Below are positions 1 to 10,468 of a DNA stretch of 64,000 nt, one piece after another. The notes under the pieces are model-generated. The model was not told where the DNA came from and ran no database searches. It saw nothing but the letters and a program-made list of their open reading frames with translations. This stretch comes from Methanococcus aeolicus Nankai-3 (GTDB lineage Archaea > AGJL01 > Methanococci > Methanococcales > Methanococcaceae): contig NC_009635.1 in assembly GCF_000017185.1 (NCBI RefSeq), positions 124,001 through 188,000 of the forward strand, written 5' to 3'. Position numbers and translations under genes: made by a program. Each line of letters opens with the position of its first letter. Within the stretch, counting starts at the first letter, position 1.

Positions 1-1
1 C

Positions 2-97
2 AACATATTAAATAATGAATTGGTAGAATATGCAAAAAATAAATATATGAAATCTATTTTTTATGAATCTGATATTTCTGTATTAAAAGATATTTAA
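2..97 (+). CDS. C-terminal end of an unidentified protein (truncated by window edge)
   Basis: An open frame enters from the left edge and runs 31 codons to a TAA at 95-97, ending with Val-Leu-Lys-Asp-Ile. Composition (Lys, Asn, Ile, Tyr) resembles the neighbouring genes, and a strong palindrome follows directly, as expected at a gene end. Too little is present to assign a family. It converges on the permease gene downstream. Confidence 0.45.
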   Translation, partial: NILNNELVEYAKNKYMKSIFYESDISVLKDI

Positions 98-140: not shown

Positions 141-1220
141 TTATATTCTTATTTTTTTTTCTCCCCTATATACCATATATATTACCAACAAACCGCCCAA
201 AATATCTAAAACAGAACCTATGGGGAGTGGTGAAGCTGGTCGAGATATTTCATAAATATAATATATTGGAACAAAATATTTCAATGAAATTATATGGCAT
301 AACAGCATCAAAACCACCCCCAACAACATTGTTGTTGGCATTAACCATCTATGGTCAGAAGTTTTTATGAGTGGTCTTGCCAAGTAAGGACTGGCTATAC
401 CTACAAAGGCTATTAATCCAACATATGGGATTATTGCCCCTACTATAAACGAAGTTGTTAATAGTATCAATATCCTAGTTTTTTTTACATTTAATCCAAA
501 ACTTTTAGCATATTTCTCTCCAAATAGTAGGGCATTTAATGGTTTTATTAAAAATATTGATAACAATATAAATATTATTGTGCATATTAGCATATTGGTT
601 ATATCGGGGATATGGATTTTAGTTATCGTTCCCACCATAAACTCCCAATACTCTTGAACTTGAATATTTTGAGCATTTGCTATTAAATAAGACCTTATCC
701 CTCCAAACAGATAACTTAATAGAAGGGCAACAATTATTACTCCATTGGATTCTTTAACTCTTAAAGCAATTATTATAAGCATAGTCATTGAAAGTAATCC
801 GCCACACCATCCCGCTATTAATATTTTATCTGTTCCAAAAGTATCTAATAAAGAGGACACACTGTTTATAAATATAACTAGTGCAACTATTAATAAAACA
901 CCCGAGGATATTCCTGTAGTATATGGTGAGGCTAAAAGGTTTCTAAACAGAGTTTGAAGCATTAACCCAGCACCAGACAAAGTTAATCCTATAAGAATTG
1001 CTCCCAATATCGGAGGAAGACGAACTTCTTTTAGCATAAAATCTTTAAATTCATCGCCTGTTGATTGTAGCATTACAAAATTTGTTACATCTTCACAACA
1101 TATTGTTTTTGCATTTCCTCCATAATATATGCCAACTATTGGAAGAACAGCAGATAAAAAAACCAATAGCAATATAACTAAATATCTATAACTTTTTTTG
1201 TGCTTATTTCCGTTTTTCAT
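141..1220 (-). CDS. FecCD/BtuC-family ABC transporter permease (second of a pair)
   Basis: A 359-residue, very hydrophobic protein with about nine or ten membrane segments, normal for the FecCD (BtuC/FhuB/FecD) family that moves corrinoids, haem or ferric siderophores across the cytoplasmic membrane. The family motif near residues 67-100 (RLPPILGAILIG, then LFRNLLASPY) and the C-terminal PYVGLIAFVG are visible. Its start overlaps the stop of the upstream permease by one base, so the two are co-translated and probably form a heterodimer. Corrinoid is the likely substrate because of the nearby BtuF-like protein, CobN and CbiZ; that is inference. No ATPase gene follows it: the next gene converges from the other strand. 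Confidence 0.88.
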   Translation of the reverse strand: MKNGNKHKKSYRYLVILLLVFLSAVLPIVGIYYGGNAKTICCEDVTNFVMLQSTGDEFKDFMLKEVRLPPILGAILIGLTLSGAGLMLQTLFRNLLASPYTTGISSGVLLIVALVIFINSVSSLLDTFGTDKILIAGWCGGLLSMTMLIIIALRVKESNGVIIVALLLSYLFGGIRSYLIANAQNIQVQEYWEFMVGTITKIHIPDITNMLICTIIFILLSIFLIKPLNALLFGEKYAKSFGLNVKKTRILILLTTSFIVGAIIPYVGLIAFVGIASPYLARPLIKTSDHRWLMPTTMLLGVVLMLLCHIISLKYFVPIYYIYEISRPASPLPIGSVLDILGGLLVIYMVYRGEKKIRI

Positions 1221-2269
1221 TATATCCCCATCTTTTTAATTTTTAAATAAATTACAATGGCTATGGGAGCTCCGATTAAAGATAATGGACATAGCAACGG
1301 TAAATTATTTGATGTTGTGGGAATTATTACGCCAGGTCTTGTAATAATATCTGCAACTATTAAAAATATTCCTCCTAACAACGCTGTTATTGGCATCACA
1401 TACAGATGTTTTGAGGTTTTACAAATCATTCTTGCAATAATTGGACAGGTAAGTCCAACAAAGGCAATAGGTCCCGTAAATGCTACAATGGTGGCTGTTA
1501 GAATACAGGACAATATTATTAACCAAGTTCTCAAATTTTTTATATTTACTCCCACACTTATAGCATAATTTTCGCCCAATAAATTTGCATCAAGTTTTTT
1601 TGATAAAAATACATAACAAATAATTGAAACTGGAATAACTACAATAGCCATCAATATAATTTGCTCCCAAGTTAAATTATTTACCGACCCCATACCCCAC
1701 AATAAAAACCCAGAAAGTTGGTCTTCTTCTTCTCCAATATATTCGCCTAAATATATTATGGCTGTTGTTAATCCCGAGGCTATTGCCCCAATCATAAGAC
1801 CACAAATCAACAGCGTAGATGTTTGTTTGACAATTCTTGCTATATTTATTACTACAAACATTGTGATAAATGAGCCCAAATATGCCGATAAAATAAATCC
1901 GTAAATTGAATGGGGAAACCCATGTTTAACCAACACCGATGTAAATATATACAATACTACCCCCAATGAAGCACCACTTGCAATTCCCATTAAATATGGG
2001 TCAGCCAAAGGATTTCTAAAATAACCTTGCATTAATATACCAGCTAAGGCAATCCCGACACCTGCCACAACTGCTCCGAGGGTTCTTGGCATTCGTAAAT
2101 TTGTTATAATTTTATCTTTAATGGTGTTTCCTGTTGTTCCATCATACAGGTAATTTATTATTTCGCTGTTTTTTATATCGACCGTTCCCAATGCCATGCT
2201 GTATATGGATGTAGCAATAAGTAATGTTGTTAGAACACCAATCAAAACAGAAAATCTTTTAAAATGCAA
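1220..2269 (-). CDS. FecCD/BtuC-family ABC transporter permease (first of a pair)
   Basis: A 349-residue polytopic membrane protein with the FecCD signature at residues 59-100 ([12 protein letters not shown], then [19 protein letters not shown]). The start is TTG at 2269, four bases after GGTGA, the usual spacing in this genome. It lies downstream of three cohesin-domain genes on the same strand with a gap of about 75 bp, and is tightly coupled to the next permease. The two permeases differ in sequence, as in Fec systems with two different channel subunits. Substrate is inferred from context (corrinoid or related chelate). Confidence 0.88.
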
Positions 2270-2345
2270 TTTTTCACCTGCTTTTTAACGGCATGATTTA
2301 TTTTTAAATTTTTTTATATTATTTATAATATTATTTGTTAATTCA

Positions 2346-4457
2346 TTAGAAAATAGCACCAATATGTTTCGCAACAACTAAACCAGCTATAAAGCCTACA
2401 ATAGATATTAGGCAATAATAAATAATATCAGACTTTTCCACATAATCTAAATCGATGGTTTTATTAATTACAATAGTTTTTGGTACTTTCTGCCTGTTTA
2501 TATTTACAATTACTTTTGAACTATTTATTGAGATATTTTTAGTATATTTTATTACATCTATTTTTTCGGACGAGACAATTTTAACTTTTTTGTCAAAGCT
2601 CCAAGTATAATATGATAATTCTGCATTATCCATTTTTTTATTAAGGGGATAATATGCAAGATTCCACTTTATGGTTGAAGTTTTAGATAGATTTATTGGA
2701 ATAATCATATTTTTTGTTTCATTGGGATTTAATTCAAAATTATATTGATTTCTCGGAGCTCCGATATCTGCATACTCTACAAAATCAACATAGGCATTAA
2801 CTTGATATGGTAGTGGATTACTTATGTTTAATTTTAAAAAGACCGTTTTATTTTCTCCATCTTTTCCTATTATTTCACTCTCTGAAAGGGAGTAATTTAA
2901 TGGATTATATTTGTTAATTGGTATTATAATTTTAACTTCATCAGATGCATTTAATGTATCTTTTACTGTTAATTTTACCGAATAATCTGTATAATTTGAA
3001 TATGTATGTATTGGATTTTGATTCGTGGAATAGTCACCATCTCCAAAATCCCACTCATAATTTAATTCACTATCGTCTGCATCATAGCATAGGGCATAAA
3101 AATTTACAACCTTGTTATTGTGCATAGACATTATGATTTTTGCAGATGGTGGCATATTTGCCCCTCTCTCTATGACATTTACAGTTAAATTTTTTGTAGG
3201 GAGCTCTATTTTTGTATAATTTGAATAAATTGATAAATTTCCAACAAATAATTTTGAAGTGGTATTAATATTGGTTTTTGGAGATATTTTAAATTTTAAA
3301 ATACTATATGTCCCATTTGTTCCATTATTTAATGAGATATTAAAATATAGATAATCCCCATTTAATGTAATATTTGAATTATTTACTTTATCATATATTG
3401 TAGAGTATTTTGAAATCTCGTATTCATTTACTTCAAATAATGAATTATTTATATACAAATAGCCTGAAAAATTTGTTAAATTTTCATTAATATTGTAGGT
3501 TTTTAATTTAATTTCTTTTGAATATCCTAATGATAGGTTTGTGTTTTCATTGTATCCATCATCTACATAGAATATTAGCCCAACAAAATTTGATATATTT
3601 TCTTGTGTTTCTTTTGTTTGCACTGTAATATTTTTAATTTCCTTTCCATTTACCATTAAATCCATTGAGATATTGTATTTGCTGTTATTGACAATTATAG
3701 GTATTTTTAAAAAATCAAACATGGTATTATTTTCATATTTGCTATTTGGCACAACATAAAATGACATTTGATTATTTGATAAATTATATACTCTAAATTC
3801 ATCACATAATATTCCTGTTGGATAGGGATTATTTTCAATTGAAACATTGTTAAAATAGATATTTCCAGATATATTTTTAATTGGAATTTTGGCACCATTT
3901 AATGATAAAACTGCATCAATATTTTTATTTAATTCAAAATCATTTATCGTAATTATGCCCACGGTTTGATTTAGTGGATTTATTGTAATGTTTGAATTAA
4001 TTATCGTAATATTATTATATCCAACTCCATTTATATTGGATACAGCTGTTTTAGATGATAGGGATATTGTTGCTGGAGGACTGGTTGCCTCATTTAGTGT
4101 CTTAAATGATAACGATGCTATTGTAATATTTCCAGATGGTTCGTTGGAGAACCATGCTATCTTAATAGATCCTGTTGATAAATCTGCCTCTTTTAGATCT
4201 GCATTATTTGAAATATCACTTAATTTTATGTCTGTTAAATTCAGTAAATTTGAATCATAAGATAAGGTAGTTTCAAATCCACTACATTTTGTATCATTTG
4301 GAATATTTTTTACAAATAAATCTAAATTAATTGTATCTCCAACTATTGTATTTGTATTGTTAGGAGTTAATTCCACAGTTATATTTTCTGCATAATTAAC
4401 CCCCACAACCAAAAAAGATAATAAAAATAATTTTAAAAATAGAGATAATTTCTTCAT
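2346..4457 (-). CDS. Surface protein with cohesin and PKD domains and C-terminal membrane anchor
   Basis: About 703 residues. A signal peptide (KLSLFLKLFLLSFLVVG) is followed by a type I cohesin-like module at about 24-165 (GDTINLDLFVKN, GFETTLSYDSNLLNL, ATISLS). A middle region of Asn- and Thr-rich beta-type sequence follows, then a PKD domain at about 434-510 (YEWDFGDGDYS) and one hydrophobic C-terminal helix with a short cytoplasmic tail. It is therefore an extracellular protein tethered to the membrane, with many N-glycosylation-type sites. The start is the ATG at 4457, because GGTGA lies five bases before it; an ATG at 4469 overlaps that site. Its cohesin is nearly identical in DNA to the first cohesin of the scaffoldin gene on the opposite strand. 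Binding of the neighbouring dockerin protein is inferred. Confidence 0.85.
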   Translation of the reverse strand: MKKLSLFLKLFLLSFLVVGVNYAENITVELTPNNTNTIVGDTINLDLFVKNIPNDTKCSGFETTLSYDSNLLNLTDIKLSDISNNADLKEADLSTGSIKIAWFSNEPSGNITIASLSFKTLNEATSPPATISLSSKTAVSNINGVGYNNITIINSNITINPLNQTVGIITINDFELNKNIDAVLSLNGAKIPIKNISGNIYFNNVSIENNPYPTGILCDEFRVYNLSNNQMSFYVVPNSKYENNTMFDFLKIPIIVNNSKYNISMDLMVNGKEIKNITVQTKETQENISNFVGLIFYVDDGYNENTNLSLGYSKEIKLKTYNINENLTNFSGYLYINNSLFEVNEYEISKYSTIYDKVNNSNITLNGDYLYFNISLNNGTNGTYSILKFKISPKTNINTTSKLFVGNLSIYSNYTKIELPTKNLTVNVIERGANMPPSAKIIMSMHNNKVVNFYALCYDADDSELNYEWDFGDGDYSTNQNPIHTYSNYTDYSVKLTVKDTLNASDEVKIIIPINKYNPLNYSLSESEIIGKDGENKTVFLKLNISNPLPYQVNAYVDFVEYADIGAPRNQYNFELNPNETKNMIIPINLSKTSTIKWNLAYYPLNKKMDNAELSYYTWSFDKKVKIVSSEKIDVIKYTKNISINSSKVIVNINRQKVPKTIVINKTIDLDYVEKSDIIYYCLISIVGFIAGLVVAKHIGAIF

Positions 4458-4468
4458 ATTATTCACCA

Positions 4469-5356
4469 TTATATTTTAGATGTAAGGCGAAATGCCACCC
4501 CACTAACTAAACTAACTAAAAATATCGCTGTTAGAAAAGTATAATCTTTATGCACTTTATTATTTACACTCAAAACCACACTTACATTGGGATCTATTTC
4601 TGAAATATTTACCTCTTTAACTAAAACCGTAGGTTCTGAATTGTTTGGATATATATTTATTTCATTTATTATTTTGGGAGCTCCACCTGTGTATGAACTT
4701 ACTTCACCACTGGTATCTTCGCTAAGTTTTTTAGATATATTTTCGCTACCAATTCCATTTATTGTTATTTCGCAACTTTTGAATATTGTATTTGGATAAT
4801 AAGAATAATATGCCCCTCTTTTTTCGGAATATATACTTATTTTATCTCCATTGTATCCTCCACCATATTCGGAAACTAGGGCAGTATCTTTATCTTCTTC
4901 TTTATTTGTGCTAAAATTTAATGTTATTTTTCCTTCCTTTTTTGGATTAAATAATACAGTTCCAATAATTAATTTATCATCATATTTTGGTTCATTAAAC
5001 ATAATATTTAAGGAAAATTTTCCATTTTCAAAATTATAGCTTTTAATTTGCTCATCTTTATAATCATCACTCCAATTAAATCCAATGGGCCCTATATTTT
5101 CCTCGGGATATTCAAAATATAATTGCATACCACTAATTCCACCATCTAAATTATTTTTACTAATGGATTCAGATGTTTCTATGCTATCTTTGGGAGGAAT
5201 ATTTTCAACGGATATATTTAATTTTATTATTTCCCCAGAGGTTTCCATATTTTCGGGCTCAAATTTTAAGATTAAATCTCCCTGTGCATAAGATGGAGAC
5301 AATATCACAAAAGTAAAAAACAAAACAAATAAAGTGATAAATGTAGGTAATCTCAT
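4469..5356 (-). CDS. Membrane-anchored cohesin-like surface protein
   Basis: 295 residues. An N-terminal signal peptide ends near Ala-Gln at residues 24-25. A cohesin-like beta domain follows over about residues 26-200 (LILKFEPENMETSGEIIKLN, GMQLYFEYPEENIGPIGF, FNPKKEGKITLNFS). A single hydrophobic helix near residues 272-290 (FLTAIFLVSLVSGVAF) anchors it at the C-terminus. The ribosome binding site GGTGA overlaps the end of the preceding gene, so the two are translationally coupled. The cohesin assignment is weaker than for the flanking proteins because the domain is more divergent; order and architecture support it. Confidence 0.7.
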   Translation of the reverse strand: MRLPTFITLFVLFFTFVILSPSYAQGDLILKFEPENMETSGEIIKLNISVENIPPKDSIETSESISKNNLDGGISGMQLYFEYPEENIGPIGFNWSDDYKDEQIKSYNFENGKFSLNIMFNEPKYDDKLIIGTVLFNPKKEGKITLNFSTNKEEDKDTALVSEYGGGYNGDKISIYSEKRGAYYSYYPNTIFKSCEITINGIGSENISKKLSEDTSGEVSSYTGGAPKIINEINIYPNNSEPTVLVKEVNISEIDPNVSVVLSVNNKVHKDYTFLTAIFLVSLVSGVAFRLTSKI

Positions 5357-5905
5357 TTATTCACCCAATCCAAGTAATTTTTTGAAAAATGAAATAATTT
5401 TTGAAAATATTCCTTCGTTGGCGTTATTTTCACTATTATCATTAATATTATCAATAACATTTAATTTTAAATTAATATTATTCATTTTTATTTCATTGGC
5501 ATCTTTATCGGCGGCTTTTGGTGTTATATGTATTGTGGTATTGCTACTGTCTTTTAATACTTTAACTTTAATTGTAGCAAGATAAAAATCCGATTGCATT
5601 GGCTCATTTATTAACATAAATGAAATTATGCCATTTCTATCCGAAAAATCATTTTTATAATAGTTACTAGCTTTTTTCCTAATGTCATCATTTTCCAAAA
5701 CATTTATAATTTTTAAATTATCTGGCACATTAACTTGGCATTCAAAACCAGATAATGATTCATTATTTTTAATTGTTATAACAATGTCAAATGTATCTCC
5801 AACATTAACTTCTGATGGGCAGTTTACCTCAACATTTGATGCAAAAGCAGACGATGCCCCCATAAAAACTATTATTATTGCCATTATTGGGAAAATATAT
5901 TTCAT
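5357..5905 (-). CDS. Small secreted cohesin-domain protein
   Basis: 182 residues: signal peptide (IFPIMAIIIVFMGASSAFA), then one cohesin module at about 24-150 (VNVGDTFDIVITIKN, LSGFECQVNVPDNLKIINV, STIHIT-type ending) and a C-terminal amphipathic stretch (GIFSKIISFFKKLLGLGE) instead of a normal transmembrane helix. GGTGA sits four bases before the ATG. It is the first gene of a minus-strand operon that runs through two more cohesin proteins to the FecCD permeases, and it is divergent from the dockerin-bearing binding protein. How it attaches to the cell is unclear; the amphipathic tail may associate with the membrane. Confidence 0.78.
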   Translation of the reverse strand: MKYIFPIMAIIIVFMGASSAFASNVEVNCPSEVNVGDTFDIVITIKNNESLSGFECQVNVPDNLKIINVLENDDIRKKASNYYKNDFSDRNGIISFMLINEPMQSDFYLATIKVKVLKDSSNTTIHITPKAADKDANEIKMNNINLKLNVIDNINDNSENNANEGIFSKIISFFKKLLGLGE

Positions 5906-6063
5906 AGAATCACCATAATACTAATTATAAAGATATTTTTAATTAATATAAATAAAACCATAACTTATATATATTATATTCACTTCATGTTATTCAAGTA
6001 ATCTACATTATAATTAACTTAAAGTTAAATATCATACCATATAAAGTTTTTGGGTGAATACTT
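5906..6063. promoter_or_regulatory. Divergent promoter region of the cohesin operon and the dockerin gene
   Basis: A 158-bp AT-rich region between divergent genes. A TATA-like stretch (CTTATATATATTATATT, about 5964-5980) and AATTAACTTAAAGTTAA-like inverted sequences are visible, plus one copy of a 16-bp repeat at 5993-6008 whose inverse lies upstream of the next gene. Both operons can be co-regulated from here. The regulator is not identifiable. Confidence 0.5.
5993..6008 (+). repeat. Left copy of a 16-bp inverted repeat (TTCAAGTAATCTACAT)
   Basis: Exact reverse complement of 7462-7477. It ends 55 bp before the ATG of the dockerin-SBP gene; the partner ends 60 bp before the ATG of the scaffoldin gene. 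Position suggests a shared operator for the two surface genes; a recombination site is the alternative. Confidence 0.55.
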
Positions 6064-7428
6064 ATGTCGAAAAATATAAATATAACATCATTAGTATTAC
6101 TAAGTATGGTATCCTTCATACTATGCATAGTTCCAGTATATGCTGATGGAGATTATAACCATAGATTAGGAGATGTAAATGCAGATGGTTCAATAAATAT
6201 TATAGATGTTGTATATTTATTCAAAAATAGAAATCTCGATTATGAAGATGGAGATATAAATGCAGATAATTCAATAAATATTATAGATGTTGTATATTTA
6301 TTCAAACATTATGACCAAATGAGAGAACCAATAAAATATGCAGAAAATATTAAATTAAAATATTATAATGAAAATGGAAATGAAGTAAATCCATACAATG
6401 GAGAATCATGGAGTTATAAAATATTTGAAGATGCAACGGGACAGAAATTTCTTTTGAAAAATGAATCCCAGCCAGTTCCAACATGGGCTGATGGAAAATA
6501 TGATAAAATATTAACCGTTCCATTAACAAGCGTAGTTACAATGAGTTCCACACATATAGCATTAATGGAGCCATTAAATGACGATGGTTCGGTTATTGGT
6601 TCAGTTAAGGGTGTTATGTGGGGCGGAAGCTACACTTGGTATTTCGATAATATTAAACAGGGACTTGATAATGGCTCAATACAAGATGTGGGTTCAAGTT
6701 ATTCTCCAAATTGGGAAAATATCACAGCATTAAATCCGCAGGCTGTAATTGTATATCCAGGATATAGTGGAGATGCAATAATTGAAAAATGTAAAAGTTT
6801 AAATATAACATATATTGCAAATTCAGAATATTTGGAAGGCTCATACCTTGCAAGATGTGAATGGGTTAAATCATTCGCCGCATTTTACAATAAAGAGGAA
6901 GAAGCAAAAAAATATTTTACAAAAATAGATAAAAGAGCTTTAAATGTGAATAGAAAAACCTATAACAGTGATTATACGGTTTTAGTAGCATGGGGTAAAA
7001 ATTACCCAAGTTATGGGGGAACATATGTTCCAAAAGCACAGGCATATGTTACCAAAGGTATAATTGATAATTGTCATGCCGATTACATATTTAAAGACAT
7101 TCCCGGAACGGGAAGTTCAAAAATAGATTATGAAACATTTGCAGAACGGGCAAAAAATGCTGATATATGGGTTGTGCCATCAAATACAAATTGGCTGTCA
7201 AGCTTCAAAACTGACCATCCCGGATACACCACATTTGAATCTACTAAAAATAACAGGGTATTCTGTATAAGTGAAGATTATTACCAATTAGGACTTATGA
7301 ATACCGATGAATTATTAATGGATTTGGGAACAATTATACACCCAGAAGCATTCAAAGGAAGAACTACCCATTATTTCCTTAGTTATAATACAGATACAGG
7401 AGATGCTACTCCTTACACTGCAAATTAA
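6064..7428 (+). CDS. Dockerin-bearing BtuF-like substrate-binding protein
   Basis: 454 residues. A signal peptide ends near residue 27 (VPVYA-DG). A complete type I dockerin with two calcium-binding F-hand repeats follows at residues about 36-81: GDVNADGSINIIDVVYLFK and GDINADNSINIIDVVYLFK. The rest (about 90-440) looks like a periplasmic binding protein of the BtuF/FecB (helical-backbone) class: VPLTSVVTMSSTHIALMEPL, ALNPQAVIVYPG, and a C-terminal region with IWVVPSN and RVFCISEDYYQ. In ABC importers such proteins capture corrinoids or chelates and hand them to FecCD permeases, which are encoded across the divergent promoter. The dockerin replaces the usual lipid anchor, so docking on the neighbouring cohesin proteins is the likely tether (inference). 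The two dockerin repeats are almost identical in DNA. Start ATG follows GGTGA with six bases between. Confidence 0.85.
   Translation: MSKNINITSLVLLSMVSFILCIVPVYADGDYNHRLGDVNADGSINIIDVVYLFKNRNLDYEDGDINADNSINIIDVVYLFKHYDQMREPIKYAENIKLKYYNENGNEVNPYNGESWSYKIFEDATGQKFLLKNESQPVPTWADGKYDKILTVPLTSVVTMSSTHIALMEPLNDDGSVIGSVKGVMWGGSYTWYFDNIKQGLDNGSIQDVGSSYSPNWENITALNPQAVIVYPGYSGDAIIEKCKSLNITYIANSEYLEGSYLARCEWVKSFAAFYNKEEEAKKYFTKIDKRALNVNRKTYNSDYTVLVAWGKNYPSYGGTYVPKAQAYVTKGIIDNCHADYIFKDIPGTGSSKIDYETFAERAKNADIWVVPSNTNWLSSFKTDHPGYTTFESTKNNRVFCISEDYYQLGLMNTDELLMDLGTIIHPEAFKGRTTHYFLSYNTDTGDATPYTAN
6169..6306 (+). repeat. Two 57-bp near-identical direct repeats encoding the dockerin
   Basis: Copies at 6169-6225 and 6250-6306, 81 bp apart, differ at only a few positions; the last 36 bp are identical. 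Each encodes one F-hand repeat. Synonymous positions are conserved too, which points to recent duplication or gene conversion. Confidence 0.8.
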
Positions 7429-7461
7429 AAATTAACCTTACATACTCTTTGTATAATATAT

Positions 7462-7477
7462 ATGTAGATTACTTGAA
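7462..7477 (-). repeat. Right copy of the 16-bp inverted repeat
   Basis: ATGTAGATTACTTGAA on the plus strand, the exact inverse of 5993-6008. It lies between the dockerin gene and the scaffoldin gene, 60 bp before the scaffoldin ATG, next to AT-rich promoter-like sequence (TTATTATATATTATTAA). The scaffoldin gene therefore probably has its own promoter with the same control site. Confidence 0.55.
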
Positions 7478-7537
7478 AATAAAACCTTATTATATATTAT
7501 TAATTTTTTTATTTTTACTTATTTTAGGTGGTATATT

Positions 7538-10468
7538 ATGAAGTGGAAATTATTTGCACTTTCGATTTTGATGATTTCTTTAATCGGAGGATGCTGTGCA
7601 GAAAATGTATCTGTGGAATTAACCCCCAGCAATGTAAATGCAATAGTTGGAGATACGATTAGTTTGGATTTAGTTGTAAAAAATATTCCAAATGATACAA
7701 AATGTAGTGGATTTGACACTACCTTATCTTATGATTCAAATTTACTGAATTTAACAGACATAAAATTAAGTGATATTTCAAATAATGCAAATCTTAAAAG
7801 GGCGAATTTATCAACGGGATTTATTAGCTTATCTTGGAGCTCCGACGAACCATCTGGAAATATTACAATAGCATCGTTATCATTTAAAGCACTAAATGAG
7901 GCAACCAGCCCAACAACAATATCATTAACTCAGACGATTGTATCGGACATAGAACCAAAGGGATATAAAATTACATTAAATAACTCAAACATAATTATAA
8001 CAAAACCAAAAGCAGATTTAATAATTGACAATATACAAATAGATAATTTAAAATCATATCAAACCAATACAATACCAATAAAAATTAAAAATATTGGCGA
8101 AATAAATGCCTCAGATAATTTTACAGTTAAATTATATATTGATTCCCAAGAACTCAGTGCAAAAACTATCAATGGATTGAATGTGGGAGAAACAAAAACA
8201 ATAGAATATAACTATATTCCATTAACAAATAAAAATTATACAATTGTTGCAGTGGTTGATTTAAACAATGAAATAGACGAATCAAATGAATCCAATAATC
8301 AACACACAAAAACAGTTGAAGCTATTGAACAGCCTATCTCATTAAACTTAATTCCTTCAACAAACCTAACAAAAACGGGGGAGACGATTACAGTAGATAT
8401 AAAATTAAGCGATATAATCAACAACAGACCCGCAAAAGGAATGGACGGAATATTAACATATGATTCAAAAATATTGGATTGCACAAATTTTACATTTTTA
8501 ATAAATGCATCAAATGATTATACAAATATTACATATGATAATGGAAAAGTTGTATTCTCAATAATGGACGGAACTATAAACACTTCAACAACCATAGCAA
8601 AGGCAACCTTTAAAGCGTTAGATGTTGGAAACTCAGAGATTAAATTGGAGGGGGTTGTTGTATCCGATATAAACGGATATAAATTTAACAGCGTAGTAAT
8701 TAATCCAAAAACTGTTGTGGTTCAAGGACCAAATATAAAAATAACAGACATATCCATGGAATCATTATATTATAAAACTCCCGCTACAATAAATATATCC
8801 ATAACAAACAATGGACATCAAGACATAACAACTAATTCAACTAATTCATTTGATGTGGAATTATTCGCAGATTCAACTTCACTGGGAACAAAAACAGTTG
8901 ATTCATTAAAGGTTGGAGAAACAAAAATAATAACGATTAATTGGACGCCTGCCAACATAAAATCATATACCTTTGTAGCCACAGCAGATAGTTTAAATAA
9001 GGTTAAAGAGGAAAATGAAAGCGATAATAAATATGTGGTTAAGGGAGAAGTTAAAAAAATACCTATGTTTATTGAAATAGAAAAAACTTCTGAAAATAAT
9101 GGGGTAATTAATGCCACTGTTAAAGTAAGCGGAGCTCCCAAACTTAGACCATGTGCAGGATATGACATAACAATATCACTTAAAAACTTAAATGTATTAA
9201 ATATAAATGCCATTGGAATATCCAACTGGACAGTTAATAACAATACAGTATTTATTACAGGATATAATTTTACAAAATATGGAAATTTCGAACTTATGAA
9301 TTTAACATTTAATTCAACAAATACCACATATTCGGCAATAATTGAAAAAATAACATTATCCGATGAAAACGGATATGGATTTAAGAAAATAAATAGAATA
9401 AATAATATAATTGACCTTGAATATCTTGGTAAATTTATTGTATTGGATAATACTACCAAAGACGCCATTGCTGAAAGTCAAGTTAGGATTGGTGGAGATT
9501 TCAATTTAACCAATATTTCATTTAAAAATGGCGATAAATTATTAATTCCATCAACTACAACTAATACAGTAAATATGACAGAAAATATAACTAAAAAAAT
9601 GGATGAAATAACAGAAAAGGCAAAAACCATAAAAGAAGCCAAAGATTTAGAAAATATTTTGTCAGGCATAAAGCCAATATTAAATGAAGGATTTAATGTA
9701 TCAAATATAACATTGAATACCACAACAAAAGGCAACATAGTAAATACAATGGTTAAATTTACAGCAACAAACACCACCGGCAAAGGATTTACAATAATGA
9801 GAATTCCAATCGGAGATATGAATATTGATAAAATAACGGTGAATACAGGAACCGAAAATATTACTTTGGTAAAAGATGATATTGCCAATAAAGTAGGGTG
9901 GTATAGTATTCCAGTTAATGGAGTATTGGAAATAACATTAATTAAAGACCCAGAAGTAAATATTATGTTATCTGCGGAGCTCCCAGTAGCACCAGTTAGC
10001 ACATCAAGAAGTGGGAGCTCCCACCACACAATAACAGAAACTTATCCCGATATAGCAAAGGACATCAAATCAGAGAAAATAAAAGAAATAGTTCATAATG
10101 CAAAGTTAATAATCGGTTCAGAAATAGATAACAACTTATCAGCAAAATGTCTTAAAAATACAACAGAGTTAATAAACAAATCATTAGAAATAACCGAAGA
10201 TACAATATTAGTCGGAGGTCCAGTAGCAAACCCATTAGCTAAAAAATACCTATGGACATTCAAAGTAAAAATAACCAACGACAACCCAGGAGCAAATAAA
10301 GGAGTAATCCAAAAACAAATAATAAACGGACATACAGTAATTTTATTAGCTGGTTCAGATAGATATGGAACAAAAGCAGCAGTAGAATACTTGAAAACAC
10401 TTGACGATATTCCAAACGAACCAATATTTGTAGAATGGAAAGACGGCAAAGCTGTTAAAATAGAATAA
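7538..10468 (+). CDS. Scaffoldin-like protein: three cohesin-like modules, two CARDB modules, S-layer-type C-terminus
   Basis: 976 residues. A signal peptide ends near LIGGCCAEN (possibly a lipobox). Modules in order: cohesin 1 at about 22-147 (GDTISLDLVVKN, GFDTTLSYDSNLLNL); CARDB-like domain at about 150-262 (IKIKNIGEINASDNFTV, NEIDESNESNN); cohesin 2 at about 266-388 (GMDGILTYDSKILDC); second CARDB at about 395-505 (ITNNGHQDI, NKVKEENESDNK); more divergent cohesin-like module at about 510-628 (CAGYDITISLKNLNVLNI). A linker domain and Ser/His-rich spacer (STSRSGSSHH) follow. The last about 135 residues contain ILVGGPVANPLAKKYLW and VILLAGSDRYGTKAAVEYL, a sequence type seen in methanogen S-layer proteins. 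The protein can thus present several dockerin sites on the envelope. It follows the dockerin gene on the same strand. Function is inferred from modules. Confidence 0.82.
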   Translation: MKWKLFALSILMISLIGGCCAENVSVELTPSNVNAIVGDTISLDLVVKNIPNDTKCSGFDTTLSYDSNLLNLTDIKLSDISNNANLKRANLSTGFISLSWSSDEPSGNITIASLSFKALNEATSPTTISLTQTIVSDIEPKGYKITLNNSNIIITKPKADLIIDNIQIDNLKSYQTNTIPIKIKNIGEINASDNFTVKLYIDSQELSAKTINGLNVGETKTIEYNYIPLTNKNYTIVAVVDLNNEIDESNESNNQHTKTVEAIEQPISLNLIPSTNLTKTGETITVDIKLSDIINNRPAKGMDGILTYDSKILDCTNFTFLINASNDYTNITYDNGKVVFSIMDGTINTSTTIAKATFKALDVGNSEIKLEGVVVSDINGYKFNSVVINPKTVVVQGPNIKITDISMESLYYKTPATINISITNNGHQDITTNSTNSFDVELFADSTSLGTKTVDSLKVGETKIITINWTPANIKSYTFVATADSLNKVKEENESDNKYVVKGEVKKIPMFIEIEKTSENNGVINATVKVSGAPKLRPCAGYDITISLKNLNVLNINAIGISNWTVNNNTVFITGYNFTKYGNFELMNLTFNSTNTTYSAIIEKITLSDENGYGFKKINRINNIIDLEYLGKFIVLDNTTKDAIAESQVRIGGDFNLTNISFKNGDKLLIPSTTTNTVNMTENITKKMDEITEKAKTIKEAKDLENILSGIKPILNEGFNVSNITLNTTTKGNIVNTMVKFTATNTTGKGFTIMRIPIGDMNIDKITVNTGTENITLVKDDIANKVGWYSIPVNGVLEITLIKDPEVNIMLSAELPVAPVSTSRSGSSHHTITETYPDIAKDIKSEKIKEIVHNAKLIIGSEIDNNLSAKCLKNTTELINKSLEITEDTILVGGPVANPLAKKYLWTFKVKITNDNPGANKGVIQKQIINGHTVILLAGSDRYGTKAAVEYLKTLDDIPNEPIFVEWKDGKAVKIE

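Follow-up and report, generated by a model that had tools for sequence, protein, structure and literature searches.

The role of cohesin and dockerin modules in non-cellulolytic archaea has been open since they were first noticed (PMC9012536, PMC5244752). As related in part of Chadwick et al. 2022 (PMC9012536), the survey of Peer et al. 2009 recorded neither archaeal multi-cohesin scaffoldins nor a clear role, and the passages of the same paper on anaerobic methane-oxidising (ANME) archaea describe dockerins on binding proteins of the NikA/OppA and TroA types, together with proteins carrying up to five cohesins. Given this ANME precedent (PMC9012536), dockerin-bearing receptors as such are not new. 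Here we describe a locus in Methanococcus aeolicus Nankai-3 (NCBI RefSeq assembly GCF_000017185.1, contig NC_009635.1) that joins such modules to an ATP-binding cassette (ABC) importer. The window, meaning the whole 64,000-nucleotide stretch analysed, corresponds to G000:C1:124001-188000, where G000 is the source genome, a single contig of 1,569,500 bases. The locus probably encodes a non-cellulosomal cohesin-dockerin receptor-display system serving an importer of the FecBCD/BtuFCD type, and so gives archaeal cohesins and dockerins a client, an importer and a testable function, namely the anchoring of receptors. A literature search found no report of this Methanococcales locus, of an alternation between dockerin and lipobox, or of homogenisation on both sides of the pair; some of the proteins may be listed by Peer et al. 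2009.

In the proposed system, two different metal-chelate receptors, binding protein (BP) 1 and BP2, would be secreted without a lipid anchor, and the N-terminal dockerin of each would plug, presumably in a Ca-dependent manner, into cohesins at two kinds of site: a) an S-layer-integrated scaffold whose three cohesins are spaced by CARDB modules; b) three membrane-associated cohesin proteins. Docked receptors would then capture chelate and hand it to a single pair of FecCD permeases and their ATPase. Module homology and the swap of anchors set out below point to physical docking, and gene linkage, together with one permease pair for two receptors, suggests delivery to FecCD. The evidence is drawn from the genes, with structure prediction of single chains; at that level the parts, their synteny, the alternation of dockerin and lipobox, the co-occurrence of dockerin-BPs with cohesins and the homogenisation of modules on both sides are all evident.

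Every part expected of a FecBCD/BtuFCD-like type II ABC importer is present, from FecCD permease and ATPase to Peripla_BP_2 receptor, and FecCD1 and FecCD2, the two permeases of the divergent locus recognised in the initial annotation, form the sole full FecCD pair in the genome. Likewise, the genome holds exactly two Peripla_BP_2 proteins, BP1 and BP2 (the latter of 424 amino acids (aa), about 1.5 kb left of the window), both of which lie at the locus, are fused to a dockerin and have a signal peptide without a lipobox. The two-repeat dockerin first noticed on BP1 is well founded: it has two canonical DxNxDxxxNxxD loops with Ca-ligand positions 1, 3, 5, 9 and 12 occupied by D, N, D, N and D in both repeats, it matches a lineage profile at E 2e-30, and Pfam Dockerin_1 (cut-off 22.9) gives 21.4 bits on the whole protein and 31.4 bits over both repeats in a genome scan. 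A profile of BP1 matches the solved dockerins 5lxv, 2mte, 1daq and 4dh2, and also binders of Fe-citrate and of siderophores, and its AlphaFold model (mean pLDDT 80.5) has the expected short dockerin helices and class III binding-protein fold. Throughout Methanococcales both repeats retain the Ca-ligand positions. Type I dockerins bind with two-fold symmetry, such that matching recognition positions are expected in both repeats; in most species positions 10/11 are indeed alike (II/II in the source genome, and IA/IA, VS/VS, IT/IT or IG/IG). Another genome, G023, has an extra pair of BP2-type dockerin receptors off the main locus (L152:3636-5897), with identical dockerins and the second gene interrupted by a stop.

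On the cohesin side, Pfam PF00963 exceeds its cut-off at three places genome-wide, all in the locus, and a lineage profile built from 18 modules detects six (three in the scaffold, one each in CohPKD, Coh295 and Coh182; E 3e-46 to 4e-7). This profile matches the solved cellulosomal cohesin 3l8q (E 6e-10) and was built without any Coh295 or scaffold-cohesin-3 row from the source genome, so that its matches to these two modules are independent. Coh182 is recovered by hhalign at 99.8% and Coh295 at 97.6% (E 4e-12), the latter also by the profile at E 3e-8; against PDB sequences Coh295 had no cohesin match, and its assignment comes from hhalign and the profile scan. With C-terminal transmembrane (TM) segments on CohPKD and Coh295, this bears out the earlier description of three further cohesin proteins, two of them membrane-anchored. 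The third, Coh182, ends in an amphipathic tail in the source genome and other Methanococcaceae, whereas most of its Methanocaldococcus orthologues, and that of one other genome, end in a clear TM segment. The trivalent scaffold with an S-layer-type C-terminus also stands: its modules are cohesin, CARDB and S-layer only, the C-terminal outer segment alone matching S-layer families, over their cut-offs (PF05124 30.5 bits; TIGR01564 39.6 bits). Its model, of low overall confidence (pLDDT 69, pTM 0.34), contains three cohesin-sized and two CARDB-sized beta-sandwiches, and a Foldseek search with it returned mostly unrelated multi-domain beta-sandwich proteins, the type II cohesin dyad 3l8q appearing among them. 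Display at both S-layer and membrane sites, as first suggested, is supported. Amongst related scaffolds, that of G028 (L107) has identical cohesins 2 and 3 (aa 271-378 and 510-617), a recent internal duplication or conversion. In G023 a separate cluster of large secreted proteins (L151:3239-13651), of which one has a weak cohesin and others have regions resembling the scaffold, lies near a protein of 1,751 aa that Pfam matches to dockerin (E 4e-9), and is possibly a second surface assembly.

Distribution was followed in 36 Methanococcales genomes, the same 36 being returned by a phylum-wide genome search; scanning of genome contigs gave only Methanococcales records (genomes, and metagenome-assembled or single-amplified genomes) plus an unrelated dockerin cluster in Zixiibacteriota. 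Cohesins were found with the lineage profile in 25 of the 36 genomes, and strong dockerins (88-114 bits) also in 25, essentially all of them on BPs or BP fragments. Cross-tabulation of the two profile-scan lists places both cohesins and a dockerin-BP in 24 genomes, neither in 10, a dockerin-BP only in one and cohesins only in one (Fisher p 5e-7, with species that are not statistically independent), and the cohesin-only genome, G027, is 64% complete with its BP cut by a contig end. The Coh182-Coh295-CohPKD operon divergent to BP1-scaffold is kept in Methanococcaceae and Methanocaldococcaceae, and the search for synteny across the order, proposed at the outset, finds the locus conserved in most genomes examined. 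The system is thus widespread in an order with cultured, genetically tractable members.

Dockerins are not confined to receptors. The third dockerin of the source genome is 420 kb away, a C-terminal module of a different type on a secreted alkaline phosphatase (G000:C1:554965-556485; L015:4966-6486), and such phosphatases also occur in several relatives, including the cohesin-free G024. Because of the BP2 dockerin and this phosphatase, the original count of four cohesin proteins for one dockerin was wrong in detail; the broader idea of a scaffold for nutrient capture instead of enzymes is supported. The phosphatases would suit a general surface-display platform, in which cohesins anchor any dockerin protein and the tie to the importer is incidental, but we consider this very unlikely: the phosphatase dockerins are divergent (about 25-65 bits, against 88-114), have other recognition positions and occur in cohesin-free G024, whereas elsewhere dockerins sit on BPs only and gene order ties the cohesins to those BPs.

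The most telling comparison concerns five Methanocaldococcus genomes (G002, G004, G007, G008 and G014) that have neither cohesins nor dockerins, and which hold BP1 and BP2 orthologues in or near the same FecCD/ATPase/Gate locus. The BP1 orthologues score 520-530 bits to the window BP1 in four of the five (G002 being seen as L084), and the BP2 orthologues 380-443 bits. Each begins with a lipobox signal (for example ..VMIAGC, ..FMSMLSGC, ..VVAFAGC) followed by a low-complexity linker, and the binding domain resumes where the dockerin ends in other species. The non-dockerin Peripla_BP_2 proteins examined in Methanococcales also carry a Cys-type lipobox, including ..CGC and ..PGC forms that a strict lipobox pattern missed and that are evident by eye. 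Trees of the binding domains place the lipobox forms in one fully supported group for BP1 and likewise for BP2, and in a midpoint-rooted drawing these fall within the dockerin forms. Judged from these genes, BP1 and BP2 switched anchors within a single lineage, along with the loss or absence of all cohesin genes, and this joint change is the strongest evidence that dockerin and cohesin together do the job of the lipid anchor, as the initial annotation had supposed. The orthologous lipid-tailed receptors of cohesin-free relatives further provide a natural control.

Signal peptides without a lipobox would also be expected if the dockerin-BPs were mainly soluble, secreted chelate scavengers, in the manner of hemophores, with the cohesins recapturing loaded receptors at the surface; the six cohesin modules outnumber the receptors, and the scaffold places cohesins outside the membrane. 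That arrangement nevertheless seems to us quite unlikely, since the S-layer-anchored cohesins encoded alongside, and the lipobox that relatives have in place of the dockerin, argue for retention, and the very tight binding usual for cohesin-dockerin pairs speaks against cycling.

A second line of evidence for receptor display comes from homogenisation of plugs and sockets within genomes. Across eight genomes, BP1 and BP2 dockerins share 83.7% aa identity in the same genome against 69.7% between genomes (2 of 40320 permutations), reaching 94-100% aa and 90-99% DNA identity in four of the eight (G000, G013, G023 and G033), whereas the binding domains of the same proteins show 33.3% within and 33.6% between. 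Scaffold cohesin 1 and the CohPKD cohesin are similarly 68% identical within and 48.5% between genomes (0 of 100000 permutations), with DNA identities of 88% in G000, 99% in G013, 98% in G030 and 94% in G029. Neither control had a within-genome excess (scaffold cohesin 2 against CohPKD, 28.8 v 28.6%; FecCD1 against FecCD2, 33.2 v 32.1%). The common tracts are short and for the most part stay within the modules: 413 bp at 83.8% DNA identity for the source-genome cohesins (88% across the cohesin itself), 299 bp at 99.7% in G013 and 166 bp at 99.4% in G003, and for dockerins 164 bp at 98.8% in G023 and 146 bp at 99.3% in G033. Such short, module-confined tracts carry the signature of gene conversion, which in Methanococcales is known to be long-lasting for mtrA (PMC4632066). 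New here is the same-genome homogenisation both of the dockerins and of the scaffold-1 and CohPKD cohesins.

From near-identical dockerins, and near-identical S-layer and membrane cohesins, it follows that both receptors probably share or interchange sockets on the S-layer and the membrane, homogenised plug and socket marking the modules that are likely interchangeable. In homogenised genomes any partner of the BP1 dockerin should also be a partner of the BP2 dockerin, and the membrane cohesin would be expected to accept a dockerin that fits S-layer cohesin 1. Hand-over of receptors between the two sites is plausible, being permitted by the shared modules; movement between sites and the identity of the substrate are the least certain parts of the receptor-display model.

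One must also consider what weighs against this model. The homogenisation, which several genomes show weakly or not at all, may reflect neutral gene conversion; a mirror-tree comparison with the BP domain as background detected no dockerin-cohesin co-variation beyond that background (partial r 0.07-0.09, p 0.23-0.28). The S-layer arm is dispensable in G005 and G006, which retain only Coh182, there ending in a TM tail, and lack any recognisable scaffold, a minimal membrane-only version. As the lipobox forms make up one clade per BP, one coupled event may account for the whole swap. BP-bearing relatives with no nearby cohesins, which had been named as a challenge to the idea, in the event speak in its favour, since without cohesins they lack the dockerin too; the exception, which does count against the model, is G015, a complete genome that has a dockerin-BP and no detectable cohesin. 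This orphan dockerin belongs to a BP2 (L119:7053-8324) adjoining the ATPase and Gate genes. Long-lasting gene conversion, the lack of excess co-variation and the orphan in G015 would all fit a vestigial state, in which conversion alone maintains module similarity and the dockerin docks no longer, yet we hold this to be highly improbable, because Ca-ligand positions are kept in both repeats order-wide, the modules are present or absent in a coordinated manner, and BPs without a dockerin have a lipobox instead.

The layout of the locus agrees with the open reading frames initially assigned, all of which lie at their claimed positions (Table 1). Read 5' to 3', the minus strand encodes Coh182, Coh295, CohPKD, FecCD2 and FecCD1, and the plus strand BP1 and the scaffold, followed by a CobN gene on the minus strand; to the left of the window are the ABC ATPase, BP2, a membrane protein termed 'Gate' and a second CobN. 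Inspection by eye of inverted repeats in the divergent promoter revealed no shared operator. Between BP2 and the ATPase, an intergenic region of 448 bp (G000:C1:122522-122969; L014:6522-6969) has a relatively G+C-rich stretch with an inverted repeat, CAAAATTT...AAATTTTG. An Rfam scan of the window and flank gave no match at gathering score, and at low threshold one chance match, in this same region.

Table 1. Features of the importer and cohesin locus (window positions unless prefixed by genome and contig)
Feature	Coordinates	Strand	Remarks
ABC ATPase gene, 3' end	1..97	+	ABC_tran E 4e-31; convergent with FecCD1
Whole ABC ATPase gene, 375 aa	G000:C1:122970-124097 (L014:6970-8097)		extends left of window
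FecCD permease 1 (FecCD1)	141..1220	-	PF01032 E 1.4e-54
FecCD permease 2 (FecCD2)	1220..2269	-	FecCD E 2e-70
CohPKD, 707 aa	2346..4469	-	signal peptide, one cohesin, PKD domain, C-terminal TM (aa 682-700)
Tract common to CohPKD cohesin and scaffold cohesin 1	3980..4392	-	contains CohPKD cohesin module 3990-4373
Coh295, 295 aa, cohesin-like	4469..5356	-	signal peptide, C-terminal TM; module about 4907-5242
Coh182, 182 aa, single cohesin	5357..5905	-	module 5480-5824
Divergent intergenic region, 158 bp	5906..6063	.	between cohesin operon and BP1-scaffold unit
BP1	6064..7428	+	signal peptide without lipobox, dockerin, Peripla_BP_2 domain
BP1 dockerin, two F-hand repeats	6169..6333	+	inside tract 6166-6360, 88% DNA identity to BP2 dockerin region
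BP1 chelate-binding domain (class III substrate-binding protein)	6658..7278	+	
Scaffold, 976 aa	7538..10468	+	three cohesins spaced by two CARDB modules, S-layer-type C-terminus
Scaffold cohesin 1	7616..7990	+	homogenised with CohPKD cohesin
Scaffold cohesin 2	8345..8707	+	different cohesin class, not homogenised with CohPKD
Scaffold cohesin 3, divergent	9104..9394	+	profile E 3.5e-7; beta-sandwich in model
S_layer_C / S_layer_MJ-like C-terminal segment of scaffold	10181..10393	+	
CobN-type chelatase large subunit, 1220 aa	10607..14269	-	PF02514 1303 bits; TIGR02257 1016 v 822 cut-off
Second CobN paralogue	G000:C1:116456-120145 (L014:456-4145)		other side of locus

The cargo is harder to name, and the BtuF-like, corrinoid identity first given to the importer was not established. 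Permease, ATPase and BP all fall below every substrate-specific NCBIfam cut-off, including those of the BtuFCD equivalogs: FecCD2 scores best with BtuC, at 170 bits against a cut-off of 334, and the BP has no BtuF match. The ATPase aligns with the archaeal corrinoid ATPase PRK09536 over nearly its full length, at 220 bits against a cut-off of 537. By sequence, the solved protein nearest to the BP is YfmC, an Fe-citrate binder, and in a Foldseek search with the BP1 model siderophore, heme and B12 binders score alike, so that the fold does not name a ligand. Possible substrates are a corrinoid, heme or an Fe-chelate, with metal tetrapyrroles as cargo a reasonable guess that falls just short of an even chance.

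The neighbouring genes bear on that guess. The importer/cohesin locus is flanked by two diverged CobN paralogues that point towards each other across it, and the copy in the window has both the CobN-Mg_chel domain and a score above the cobalto_cobN equivalog cut-off. A CobN gene occurs no more than 10 kb from importer or cohesin genes in 11 of 15 genomes, where random positions would give 0.9, and none is nearby in G013, G014, G002 and G004. In G003 the locus CobN (L105:11678-14852) has several frameshifts and stops; the cohesin and dockerin genes there are intact. In Bacteroides the CobN relative HmuS strips heme of its iron; what its archaeal homologues do is described as unclear (PMC12583661). 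HmuS itself was not supported as an identity for the CobN neighbour, which scores 745 bits for CobN against 378 for HmuS, has 1220 aa against over 1400 and probably does not have the Met-rich insertion of HmuS.

Together, CobN proximity, the BtuC-leaning permease, the resemblance of the ATPase to its corrinoid counterpart and the activity of HmuS on heme favour tetrapyrrole salvage, whereby a corrinoid, heme or an F430-like compound would be imported and the neighbouring CobN-type proteins would insert or remove its metal in the cytoplasm. Set against this are the missed cut-offs, a BP nearer to an Fe-citrate binder, a CobN closer to CobN than to the longer HmuS, four genomes without CobN nearby, and the failure to find a cobalamin or other riboswitch with Rfam in the window and flank. 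Salvage of this kind, which is compatible with receptor display, we would put at slightly under evens. An extension of the receptor-display model into a relay is rather unlikely: gene conversion would keep near-identical both the one dockerin type of the two receptors and its sockets on S-layer scaffold and membrane protein, so that loaded receptors could exchange between the permease and a capture layer further out and feed metal tetrapyrrole to cytoplasmic CobN-type enzymes; if true, it would amount to a transport system with modular, non-covalent receptor anchoring. The CobN link is a lead on archaeal CobN/HmuS homologues (PMC12583661).

The receptor-display locus can be compared with several known systems. 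With BtuCDF, FecBCDE and FhuBCD it shares FecCD permeases, an ABC ATPase and a class III binding protein, and differs from them in having a dockerin instead of a lipid tail and two receptors per permease pair. Like HmuS (PMC12583661), it links a CobN-family protein to a chelate importer, although its CobN is closer to CobN proper and no Hmu partners accompany it besides the ABC importer. Cellulosomes have modules homologous to these by profile (3l8q, 1daq, 4dh2), a multi-cohesin scaffold on an S-layer-type anchor and dockerins of two near-identical repeats, whereas no glycoside hydrolase or carbohydrate-binding client was found for this locus, the clients of which are transport receptors. Archaeoglobus fulgidus, as cited in PMC9012536, is likewise a non-cellulolytic archaeon with both cohesin and dockerin modules; unlike the surveyed archaeal pairs, the present locus has a scaffold bearing more than one cohesin, and its client is defined. 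Also close are the ANME archaea, for which the relevant passages of PMC9012536 report dockerin-fused substrate-binding proteins, scaffold-like multi-cohesin proteins and suggested links to the S-layer, given there as a list of domain occurrences without assignment to loci. In Methanococcales, by contrast, cohesins on an S-layer scaffold and on membrane proteins share a conserved locus with a FecCD importer and two receptors; relatives have the lipobox alternative, and the modules are homogenised.

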